Shown piece by piece: positions 5,412 to 8,951 of a DNA stretch of 48,935 nt (its first letter is position 1; every line of letters begins with the position of its first letter). Origin of the DNA: Acidimicrobiaceae bacterium (GTDB lineage Bacteria > Actinomycetota > Acidimicrobiia > Acidimicrobiales > Aldehydirespiratoraceae); assembly GCA_009843915.1 (NCBI GenBank), contig VYCM01000077.1, positions 1 through 48,935 of the forward strand. The letters run 5' to 3'. The notes under the pieces are model-generated. The model was not told the DNA's origin and searched no databases. It saw only the letters and a program-made list of their open reading frames with translations. Position numbers and translations under genes: made by a program.

Positions 5412-6494
5412 ATGATCCCTGTTCATGGCGACCAGCAGGTCGACGATCCGTGGGAGGCCATCGAGGCCTGCTACACCGCCGGCTGGACCGACGGCCTGCC
5501 CGTGGTCCCGCCCACCGAGCCGCTGGTCGCCGCCATGCTGGCCGGCGGCGTCTGGGATGCCGACGAGGTGCTGCTCGACGACCCGTGGCGTGGGATGGCC
5601 GTCACTGCCCGCAAGGCCGCCGTCAACGCGGTGATGTCCGGCTGCTTGCCCGAGTACTTCCCGGTGGTGGGCGCCGCGCTGCAGGCCATGAGCGCTCCGG
5701 AGTTCGCGTTGCATGCCGTGGCGGCCAGCACCGGCGGGGCGGCCGTGCTTGTGGCTGTCAACGGGCCGATCCGCGAAGAGATCGGGATCCACTACAAGGA
5801 GAACCTCTTCGGGCCCGGGTTCAGGCCCAACGCCACCATCGGCCGCACTGTCCGGCTGGTGCTGCGCAACTGCCTCGCAGCCATACCCGGAGCGCTGGAC
5901 AAGAGCACTCAAGGCTGGCCCGGCAAGTACGCCATCTGCTTCGCCGAGGACGAGGCGTTGTGTCCCTGGGAGCCTTTCCACGTCTCCCGGGGATATGAGA
6001 CGTCACAGAGCACGGTCACCATCATGGCCGCCGAGTCCGGCCACAACATCGTCAACCACGCCTCCTCGGAGGTGTCCGAGCTGCTCGGAACGTTCGCCGA
6101 TGCGATGGCGGCCTTCGGTTCGCTCAGCTCGGGCCGCTCGCTGATCGTGTTCGCGCCCGAGCACGCCCGCAAGATCTCGGCCTCCGGGTGGAGCCGGTCC
6201 CAGGTTCAGGAATACCTGTTCGAGCACTCGGCCCGCTCCTTCGCCGATGTCAAGCGGGGTGGCAAGGTGGAGCCGGGCGGCTTCGTGGAGGGGTTCGACC
6301 CGGTGTGGTGGATGAGGTCGGACCCGACCGTGCATCCCGGCGACGAGGACATCCTGGTACGGCGGGGGACCGGCCCGGACGACATCGCGCTGATGGTCGG
6401 CGGCGGCGACGCCGGCGGGCACTCGGCGTTCTTCCCGACGTGGAGCCGGGACCGCAGCGTCCCGCTTGTAACCCAGGAGATAATCACCCCATGA
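5412..6494 (+). CDS. Uncharacterised protein paired with a UGSC selenoprotein
   Basis: A 360-residue, apparently soluble protein whose function I do not recognise. The start ATG 5412 has a strong GGAGGGG site at 5401-5407. Distinctive segments are WTDGLPVVPPTEPLV near residue 27, AVNAVMSGCLPEYFPVV near 67, TGGAAVLVAVNGPIREEIG and NATIGRTVRLVLRNC in the middle, and a C-terminal stretch with HSAFFPTWS. Its stop overlaps the start of the next gene (ATGA at 6491-6494), so the two are translationally coupled and probably work together. The next gene encodes a selenoprotein of the UGSC family, which makes this protein a candidate partner, substrate-binding subunit or sequential enzyme. No signal peptide or membrane segment is visible. 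Confidence 0.8.
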   Translation: MIPVHGDQQVDDPWEAIEACYTAGWTDGLPVVPPTEPLVAAMLAGGVWDADEVLLDDPWRGMAVTARKAAVNAVMSGCLPEYFPVVGAALQAMSAPEFALHAVAASTGGAAVLVAVNGPIREEIGIHYKENLFGPGFRPNATIGRTVRLVLRNCLAAIPGALDKSTQGWPGKYAICFAEDEALCPWEPFHVSRGYETSQSTVTIMAAESGHNIVNHASSEVSELLGTFADAMAAFGSLSSGRSLIVFAPEHARKISASGWSRSQVQEYLFEHSARSFADVKRGGKVEPGGFVEGFDPVWWMRSDPTVHPGDEDILVRRGTGPDDIALMVGGGDAGGHSAFFPTWSRDRSVPLVTQEIITP

Positions 6495-7291
6495 CGGTCA
6501 CTCTCATCGATCCGACCCTGGCTCCGGCCGGCACAGGCCGAGATCTCGCAGCCCGTCCCGCCAACCTCGACGGGGCTGTGCTCGGTCTGGTCAACAACGG
6601 CAAGACCCGCGGCCGCGAGATCCTCCAGCGTGTGGCGGAGAACCTCCAGGCCAGGCATCCGATCCGGGCCACGATCCTGGTGACCAAGCCCGACTCGAGC
6701 TTCCCGGCCGCACCGGAGGACGTCGAGATGCTGGCCGCCGACGCCACCGCCATCATCGCCGCCATCGGCGATTGAGGCAGCTGCTCGTCGGGCAGTGTGC
6801 TCGACGCCGTCCGGTTCGAGGAGCTCGGCCTGCCCGCGGCCGCCATCGTGACCGAGCCCTTCACGACCACCGGCAAGGTCATGGCCGAGCTGCAGGGCTT
6901 CGCCGACTACCCGTTCGCCACCGTCCCGCATCCGATCGGCAGCCTCTCGGAGGACCAGGTGACCGCTCTGGCCGACGCGGTCACGCCCGCGGTCGAGAGC
7001 CTGCTGCTGCACGGCGAGGCCGGCCCCGTCGCCGCCGCTGGTGCCGGACCGGGGAGCCTCGACGCGGTGGTGGAGTCCCTGGCTGTGGCTCTCCGGGCTG
7101 ACCGCGCCGACCTGACCGCCGAGCAGTCCGGGAGCCGCATCACGTTCCGGCTCCACATTCCCGACGAGGCCTGCGCCGAATGCGTGATGCCCTCTTCGAT
7201 GCTGGTCCCCATGTTCCAGCACCGTGTCGACCAAGAACTCGGCCCCGGATTGACGGTTGAGTTGGACGACCCCCGAACTTCCGTGAATTAG
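6491..7291 (+). CDS. UGSC family selenoprotein (in-frame TGA read as selenocysteine)
   Basis: Read through the TGA at 6773-6775, this is one 266-residue protein with selenocysteine at residue 95. The N-terminal 94 residues run from MTVTLIDPTLAP to TAIIAAIGD. The next residues are Sec-Gly-Ser-Cys-Ser-Ser-Gly-Ser, the motif after which the UGSC selenoprotein family is named, and the same frame continues with good codon use to TAG at 7289-7291. The middle region (EELGLPAAAIVTEPF, GFADYPFATVPHPIGSL) is well formed. A C-terminal region carries Cys228-x-x-Cys231 in a setting that loosely resembles NifU C-terminal domains. The ATG has an AGGAGA site at 6475-6480. A SECIS-type hairpin follows the TGA, and selA is in the same window. 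The family's biochemical role is unknown; the Sec/Cys pair suggests redox chemistry. Confidence 0.93.
6773..6775 (+). other. In-frame UGA selenocysteine codon
   Basis: This TGA lies between GAT (Asp94) and GGC AGC TGC (Gly-Ser-Cys). Reading it as a stop would leave a 94-residue fragment and an orphan downstream frame opening at GTG 6797. Reading it as Sec gives the UGSC motif exactly. Support comes from the hairpin at 6786-6806 and the selA gene at the left edge. Confidence 0.92.
6786..6806 (+). promoter_or_regulatory. Bacterial SECIS hairpin within the coding sequence
   Basis: The RNA folds as an uninterrupted 8-pair stem, CGUCGGGC (6786-6793) with GCUCGACG (6799-6806), including one G-U pair, closed by the loop AGUGU (6794-6798). 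The apical loop begins 18 nucleotides after the UGA, and G is the second loop base. Both match the published bacterial SECIS pattern (loop about 16-37 nucleotides downstream, G among the first two loop bases). The expected role is binding of SelB to bring Sec-tRNA to the ribosome. It was folded by eye, not computed. Confidence 0.8.
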
Positions 7292-7337: not shown

Positions 7338-8510
7338 TCAGGCTTCGGCCGTGTCCACCGCGTCGAGCGCGGCCACGGCGGCTTCCAGCATGCGGGCGCT
7401 GCAGCCGGCCATCTCCACCGGTGGCACGTGCTCCTCCGACAGGGCTTGGGCCGCCGCCTTGAAGGCCTCGGCTGCCGGGCCGTCGCCCAGCACGGCGGGC
7501 TCGCCGGTGTCGAAACCGTCGGCCACGGCAGCCTCGAGGGGGATGCGGCCCAGCAGCGGCGCACCGACCTCCGCGGCGAGGGCCTCGCCCCCTCCCGAGC
7601 CGAACACGGCGTGATGCCCGCCGTCGGGGGTGGCCAGGTAGCTCATGTTCTCGACCACGCCCACGATGCGCAGGTAGTTCTTGCGGCCCATGTCCACCAC
7701 CCTGGCCGCCACCTTCTGGGCGGCCGTCGCCGGGGTGGTCACGATGATCATCTCGGCTCGAGGCAGCATCTTGGCCAGGCCCATCTGCACGTCGCCGGTG
7801 CCGGGCGGCATGTCGATCAGCAGGTAGTCGAGGTCGTCGCTCCAGCGGACGTCCTCGCAGAAGTGCTGCACGGCCCGGTTGAGCATCAGCCCCCGCCACA
7901 TCAGCGCCGAGTCCTCGCGGTCCACCAGGAATCCCATCGACACGACGTCGAGGCGACCCTCGCCGACGGTCCGGGTGAGCGGGACGATCTTGCCGTCGAG
8001 GGAGCGCAGATCGCCGTCGACGCCCAGCATCCGGGGCACCGAGTAGCCCCAGATGTCGGCGTCCATCACGCCGACGTTGAACCCCTGCGAGGCCAGCGCG
8101 GCGGCCACGTTGGTGGTGACCGTGGACTTGCCCACGCCGCCCTTGCCGCTGGCCACCATCAGCACCTTGGTGGTGGGCGGGATGGCGGTGTCCGGCGCGC
8201 GTTGTGAAACATTGAAGCGGGCCTTGGACATGGCCGCGGCCTTCTCGTCGGCGGTGAGCTCGGCCCACACGATGCGCACCTTGGTAACCCCGGGAAGGGA
8301 CTCCAGCCGGGCCTTGACGTCCTTTTGGATCTGGGCCCGCAGCGGGCAGCCGGCAGTCGTCAACGCGATCTCGATCCGCACCTGACCGTCGTCGGACACC
8401 TGCGCGCCCCGGGCCATGCCCAGCTCCACCAGGTTGCTTCCCAACTCAGGATCGACCACACCGCGCATGAGATCCATCACGGCCTCGGCCGTCGGCGCGG
8501 TCGTGGTCAC
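7338..8510 (-). CDS. mrp: Mrp/ApbC-type P-loop ATPase, iron-sulfur cluster carrier
   Basis: A 390-residue protein with an N-terminal MIP18/DUF59 domain (about residues 5-85, with VVDPELGSNLVELGMA and TTAGCPLRAQI) and an Mrp/NBP35-type ATPase domain. The ATPase has the deviant Walker A motif SGKGGVGKST at 121-130, DADIWGYSVPRMLG and LLIDMPPGTGDVQM. In ApbC-type proteins the conserved ENMS motif is followed by a CxxC that holds the bridging Fe-S cluster. Here the sequence is ENMSYLATPDGG, so those cysteines are absent, as I recall for actinobacterial Mrp homologues. Members transfer or assemble Fe-S clusters in the cytoplasm. It is divergent from an A-type carrier gene at 8631, which strengthens the Fe-S assignment. 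Confidence 0.93.
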   Translation of the reverse strand: MTTTAPTAEAVMDLMRGVVDPELGSNLVELGMARGAQVSDDGQVRIEIALTTAGCPLRAQIQKDVKARLESLPGVTKVRIVWAELTADEKAAAMSKARFNVSQRAPDTAIPPTTKVLMVASGKGGVGKSTVTTNVAAALASQGFNVGVMDADIWGYSVPRMLGVDGDLRSLDGKIVPLTRTVGEGRLDVVSMGFLVDREDSALMWRGLMLNRAVQHFCEDVRWSDDLDYLLIDMPPGTGDVQMGLAKMLPRAEMIIVTTPATAAQKVAARVVDMGRKNYLRIVGVVENMSYLATPDGGHHAVFGSGGGEALAAEVGAPLLGRIPLEAAVADGFDTGEPAVLGDGPAAEAFKAAAQALSEEHVPPVEMAGCSARMLEAAVAALDAVDTAEA

Positions 8511-8630: not shown

Positions 8631-8951
8631 ATGATCACACTCACCGACAAGGCGTCGACCAAGGTATCGGAGCTCATCAAGGCGGAGGGAGAGGACGGCC
8701 TCGCCCTGCGGGTGGCCGTGCGCCCCGGCGGCTGCTCGGGTTTCTCCTACGAGATGTACTTCGACACCGACATAGTCGAGGGCGATACCAAAGAGACCTT
8801 CGGCGACGTTCAGGTGGTGGTGGACCCGTCGTCGGCCATGCTGCTCGACGGGGCCACGCTCGACTACTCCGATGGGTTGCAGCAGGCCGGGTTCTCGATC
8901 GACAACCCCAACGCCCAGCGCAGCTGCGGCTGCGGCCAGAGCTTCAGCTAG
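8631..8951 (+). CDS. erpA: A-type iron-sulfur carrier protein (ErpA/IscA/HesB family)
   Basis: A 106-residue protein matching the usual A-type carrier length. The three cluster-ligand cysteines are present: Cys35 in RPGGCSGFSY, and Cys99 and Cys101 in the C-terminal SCGCGQSF. These proteins accept [2Fe-2S] or [4Fe-4S] clusters and pass them to apo-enzymes. It is separated from mrp by a 120-base divergent region. A GGAG site lies shortly before ATG 8631. The symbol is a family-level assignment; sequence alone does not separate ErpA from IscA. The next gene contains two predicted [2Fe-2S] centres and is a possible client. Confidence 0.93.
   Translation: MITLTDKASTKVSELIKAEGEDGLALRVAVRPGGCSGFSYEMYFDTDIVEGDTKETFGDVQVVVDPSSAMLLDGATLDYSDGLQQAGFSIDNPNAQRSCGCGQSFS

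Follow-up and report, generated by a model that had tools for sequence, protein, structure and literature searches.

We analyzed a 48,935-nucleotide stretch of DNA (hereafter, the window) from an Acidimicrobiaceae bacterium, namely positions 1 to 48,935 of contig VYCM01000077.1 in assembly GCA_009843915.1. A gene at positions 6491–7291 of the window is very probably a genuine selenoprotein gene of the known UGSC family. The call itself is not new, because the family has already been named (Pfam PF24696, NCBIfam NF041046). New here are a near-obligate UGSC partner, an unnamed protein of 360 residues; a relationship, supported at the sequence level, between UGSC and the GrdB/PrdB catalytic domain; and a fused, divergent NifU-like domain with a CxxC motif, elsewhere a separate gene near UGSC. 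An earlier note on this DNA, made from its letters alone, had proposed the selenoprotein and its hairpin. The note lacked the overlapping partner gene, the fused domain and the probable relationship to GrdB/PrdB. The features discussed below are as follows.

5412–6494, forward strand: partner gene, 360 residues, unnamed family; its stop overlaps the UGSC start (ATGA)
6491–7291, forward strand: UGSC-family selenoprotein gene, ATG to TAG, 266 codons, selenocysteine (Sec) at residue 95
6503–7006, forward strand: UGSC domain, residues 5–172 (PF24696, E-value 1.1e-50; AlphaFold2 model; fold comparison)
6773–6775, forward strand: in-frame UGA, codon 95, almost certainly read as Sec; TGA conserved in orthologues
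6786–6806, forward strand: putative selenocysteine insertion sequence (SECIS) hairpin; conserved across the family, alone not significant
7061–7288, forward strand: C-terminal NifU_C-like domain with a CxxC motif (CAEC); stand-alone relatives match PF01106
3–1049, reverse strand: selA, cut by the contig end (TIGR00474, 342.7 bits); selB stands beside selA in most relatives

A conserved UGA codon within the UGSC gene

The frame contains a single in-frame TGA, which opens the motif UGSCSSGS at codon 95, and then runs for 171 more residues to the TAG at 7289–7291, just as the earlier note had read it. The read-through protein scores 172.6 bits against PF24696 (cut-off 25) and 127.7 bits against NF041046 (cut-off 125). 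The latter model also matches the parts before (E-value 2.3e-9) and after the UGA (E-value 1.6e-14) on their own, both scoring below the cut-off set for the whole protein. When genome contigs were scanned with the window's protein, 18 relatives were returned, all from metagenome-assembled genomes (MAGs) named Acidimicrobiia, Acidimicrobiaceae, Acidimicrobiales or Microthrixaceae. One locus (L090) is a fragment. The remaining 17 are full-length, and all of them keep TGA at codon 95 and conserve the protein on both sides of it. The family identity that the note proposed is supported.

UGSC matches are present in 24 of the 296 genomes of a sample of the phylum (22 over the cut-off), and one in-frame TGA occurs in 28 of the 38 match rows. 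The window's own genome has three UGSC loci, with TGA in each; the two others (L002 and L003/L048) each come with a partner gene of their own. In alignments with homologues, U95-G-S-C98 falls into register, and cysteine (Cys) occupies the Sec site in L023, L038, L041 and L042 as well as in an orthologue on an Arthrobacter plasmid, which shares the two-domain layout and 35% identity over residues 1–262. The motif [U/C]G[S/A]C is present in 27 of 31 tabled UGSC loci, the other four (L043–L046) being weak matches, two of them (L045 and L046) under the cut-off. Its invariance in later alignments proves nothing, because the rows were picked by that motif. In L044 (1477–3198), a UGSC–partner fusion, DMGTS replaces U/CGSC, and a Sporomusa plasmid fusion is alike; this is a branch of the family free of Sec and Cys.

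The window's protein resembles the known family in passing both cut-offs, in the UGSC motif, in a position held by Sec or Cys and in the SECIS. It differs by the additional NifU-like C-terminal domain, which its Acidimicrobiia orthologues have as well. The expectation that automatic annotation would truncate or split the gene may no longer apply to current pipelines, because Pfam and NCBIfam both model the family and NCBI names its members ‘UGSC family (seleno)protein’. UGSC is counted among the most abundant selenoprotein families in marine and non-marine Global Ocean Sampling data (PMC2398784), and UGSC-motif selenoproteins are mentioned in bacteria whose tRNA-Sec has the anticodon CUA (PMC5330540); the codon in the window is UGA.

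A hairpin downstream of the UGA

The eight-pair hairpin (arms 6786–6793 and 6799–6806) has the loop AGUGU (6794–6798) with G in the second position. It lies 10 nucleotides from the UGA to the stem and 18 to the loop; all these particulars of the original description were confirmed. It is plausibly a bacterial SECIS. Across the family, 87.5% of cells are paired at this position, compared with 13.7–48.8% when the hairpin is slid (the count used 21 of the 28 distinct Sec rows). In three of the pairs both bases are exchanged, as in C-G to G-C beside the loop and U-A to A-U or G-U. None of 500 shuffles reaches the observed number of paired cells, the number of cells with both bases changed or the covariation score; two other measures are unremarkable, as shuffles reach them in 49 and 139 cases out of 500. 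All seven core pairs are kept in 23 of the 28 distinct Sec rows, the other five keeping 4 to 6 (L052 only 4), and the four Cys rows retain 1 to 4. Random synonymous recoding reaches the window's count of core pairs (of seven) in 6% of draws. Therefore, support for the hairpin comes from its repetition across genes.

Selenium machinery

The selA gene that had been noticed in the window is indeed there, albeit incomplete. Of the other genes whose presence was at issue, selC (tRNA-Sec, anticodon TCA) and selD were found in the window's genome, and selB gave no match over the cut-off in its 88%-complete bin. The selD gene (L021) has its own in-frame TGA and, judged by sequence, also encodes a selenoprotein, with Sec in HGAGUACK. 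Orthologues come from 17 genomes, and in 16 of these selB passes the cut-off. The selB search returned 17 loci (one of them not selB), 13 of which have selA within the same stretch. Because the window starts inside the 3' part of selA, the selB gene is probably located immediately past the end of the contig. By inference, Sec insertion at the UGA is nearly certain.

A near-obligate partner gene

For the 360-residue product of the gene that overlaps the UGSC start, Pfam and NCBIfam gave no match at E-values up to 10. A homologue, detected by alignment or tblastn, lies directly upstream on the same strand at 36 of 38 UGSC loci, and at the other two (L035 and L052) the partner is directly downstream by coordinates. 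These 38 come from 43 motif-bearing loci, the window aside (L029, L032, L033, L036 and L039 were left out); the weak or partial loci L043–L046 and L090 are outside the 43. In the phylum sample, 23 of the 296 genomes have the partner: each of the 22 whose UGSC match passes the cut-off, and 1 of the 274 others (Fisher P = 2.5e-32, kinship ignored). It is adjacent or fused at 33 of the 36 UGSC rows over the cut-off, the exceptions being G046 C612, G102 C23 and G156 C68. Natural UGSC–partner fusions occur in G136, Sporomusa termitida and Variovorax boronicumulans. The single genome with a partner and without a UGSC match (G183) is matched five times by the partner profile, within two long open frames of one contig (C272).

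Cys78, Arg145, Asp163, Lys172 and Glu179 are invariant in 32 aligned partner sequences (alignment A4: the window and 31 of 37 upstream open reading frames). The six frames left out are L035, CoA-transferase-like on reading its sequence, and L078, L083, L085, L086 and L087, which match the partner by tblastn. A structural model of the partner (mean predicted local distance difference test score, pLDDT, 80.2) gave no convincing match in fold comparison. Within the accessible portions of the full-text literature on UGSC selenoproteins, a scope that excludes subscription papers and preprints, we met no statement of either the partner or a GrdB kinship.

The partner was also found in 24 plasmid records. 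We opened 12 regions, chosen by hand, of which 11 are annotated. It adjoins a gene named UGSC in 5 of these 11 and has trxB within 5 kilobases in 3 (Roseovarius, Variovorax SRS16 and Arthrobacter); the Arthrobacter genes are arranged as trxB, trxA, partner, UGSC–NifU fusion. Mostly beside UGSC, the partner extends to haloarchaea and Proteobacteria. Several plasmid regions have TRAP or TTT transporter parts, CoA-transferases and LysR regulators nearby, neighbors that would point to the catabolism of an organic acid.

Likely relationship to GrdB and PrdB

Comparison by hhalign of 39 UGSC with 17 GrdB C-terminal sequences gave a probability of 94, an E-value of 1.3e-7 and a score of 51.5 over 84 columns, with Sec aligned on Sec. 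In the controls, 60 column shuffles reached at most 21.1 and the reversed profile 17.9. The match is weaker with other target alignments. In a HMMER search PF07355 did not match the UGSC protein, PF24696 alone being listed at E-values up to 0.01; we filed UGSC as a remote relative of GrdB/PrdB and not as a member. The AlphaFold2 model of UGSC (mean pLDDT 88.8) alternates beta and alpha elements in a Rossmann-like order and places Sec95 at the N-terminus of the helix that follows strand 3. Judged by title, most of the fold matches among the 50 listed are Rossmann- or flavodoxin-like and none is named a thioredoxin, although such a list cannot exclude a fold.

With GrdB, GrdF, GrdH and PrdB (PF07355, TIGR01918, TIGR04483), the subunits of glycine, sarcosine, betaine and D-proline reductases, UGSC appears to share the profile of the Sec domain, the Sec position, an [HY]P-type stretch, the UxxC arrangement, a fixed partner gene and, for some members, thioredoxin genes nearby. 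Other features differ. UGSC lacks the HMMER match to PF07355 and has about 170 residues, compared with 430 in the GrdB of L055. Its partner is no homolog of GrdE/PrdA (probability 0.2 against a GrdE-type profile, whose set includes L058, a match to NF040793 and TIGR04480 below their cut-offs) and is also present in haloarchaea and Proteobacteria, mostly beside UGSC. As a separate observation, short GrdB-like proteins covering PF07355 positions of about 200–345 are common in the phylum sample (for example, G000:C138:5851–6276); in the four such loci that were read (L069–L072), the Sec site holds TGA.

The fused NifU-like domain

The CxxC of the C-terminal tail is invariant across 12 aligned sequences. 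The profile built from them (A6) finds stand-alone relatives of the tail, 4 of 6 of which match PF01106, the NifU C-terminal domain, over the cut-off (best E-value 1.4e-10), and the fused Cys orthologue in Arthrobacter reaches 27.2 bits (cut-off 27). The tail thus resembles PF01106 through its stand-alone relatives and the conserved CxxC, but the window's own tail was not matched directly by PF01106 in the Pfam search. The 2008 Global Ocean Sampling paper (PMC2398784) mentions a fusion of UGSC with ‘Unknown_1’, which may or may not correspond to the NifU-like tail.

A Mrp/ApbC-like ATPase gene (7338–8510, reverse strand) and a HesB/IscA-like gene (8631–8951, forward strand), iron–sulfur (Fe-S) carrier types named on reading their sequences, adjoin UGSC. 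Both are near UGSC in 8 of the 18 relative loci and absent from the others within reach of the stretches. Their position beside a NifU-like tail is suggestive. In three further loci (L132, L133 and L139), a short-chain dehydrogenase gene is followed by a stand-alone NifU-like gene beside an alcohol-dehydrogenase-like gene (again names from sequence reading), and UGSC was not found within the stretch.

Proposed mechanism and alternatives

On balance, we lean towards UGSC and its partner being a two-protein, thioredoxin-recycled reductase. In this scheme, the hairpin that closely follows the UGA would direct tRNA-Sec to insert Sec there. Residues 1–172 would form the UGSC domain, distantly related to the domain that carries the selenolate in GrdB/PrdB; it would act with the product of the partner gene translated just before it. 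The partner may bind and activate an organic-acid or amine substrate, the selenolate of Sec95 would attack this bound substrate, and Cys98 would resolve the selenium adduct to a selenide–sulfide (U-x-x-C). Thioredoxin and thioredoxin reductase would restore the selenol, perhaps helped in the window's subfamily by the fused NifU-like CxxC domain. In the known reductases, GrdA and GrdB are supplied by NADPH, thioredoxin reductase and thioredoxin; for D-proline reductase, the proposal is that the selenolate of PrdB attacks a substrate carbon, after which a PrdB Cys resolves the selenoether (PMC3091704).

The most serious competitor, possible though unlikely, makes UGSC a redox or delivery subunit (for electrons, sulfur/selenium or a cluster) that serves the partner, the real enzyme. 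The partner's many invariant polar residues and invariant Cys fit such a role, as do two natural fusions that keep the partner Cys and have neither Sec nor Cys in UGSC, and the G183 partner without UGSC. Also in its favor, the NifU-like domains of known families carry Fe-S. However, the motif recurs in all but the four weak loci, Sec would be costly for a mere spacer, and the GrdB-like match centers on Sec. It is improbable that UGSC, while a true selenoprotein, is simply a thiol/selenol oxidoreductase or peroxidase of thioredoxin fold, the view taken in the 2008 Global Ocean Sampling paper. In favor of this view, the UxxC motif is of a redox type, and a 2026 review lists UGSC beside Prx/Trx/Grx-like proteins of Trx-like fold (PMC13188914). 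Yet the confident model alternates beta and alpha elements with Sec after strand 3, thioredoxin titles are lacking among the listed fold matches (which excludes nothing), and both the GrdB profile match and the fixed, enzyme-like partner speak against it.

We give hardly any credence to the UGA being a real stop, whether in a pseudogene, through a sequencing error or between two separate genes. Two results do weigh against read-through: selB was not found in the bin, and the window's hairpin taken alone is not significant (z = -0.13 over 43 nucleotides), its minimum-energy fold differing from the one described. Against a real stop stand the identical TGA in 17 of 17 orthologues from different MAG records with conserved flanking protein, the recurrent single TGA in the phylum sample, the hairpin with its pair changes and its erosion in the four Cys members, and selA, selC and selD, together with selB in nearly all relatives.

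Implications

A more general proposal, which we advance tentatively as somewhat short of an even chance, is that UGSC and its partner represent a new class of two-subunit reductases that depend on a selenolate (or thiolate), are recycled by thioredoxin and are spread among actinobacteria, Proteobacteria and haloarchaea. Here, a GrdB/PrdB catalytic domain would be combined with an unrelated substrate-binding protein replacing the pyruvoyl subunit, and the fused NifU-like domain of the window's subfamily may serve as a built-in reductant or carry a cluster. According to the 2026 review (PMC13188914), such selenoproteins are still largely uncharacterised in function. The near-fixed partner, the probable GrdB-like ancestry and the thioredoxin neighbors in some species argue against the thioredoxin-fold label of 2008 and replace an ‘unknown redox protein’ by a two-protein enzyme that can be tested, for which the Cys members with the same partner would provide a route to expression without selenium.
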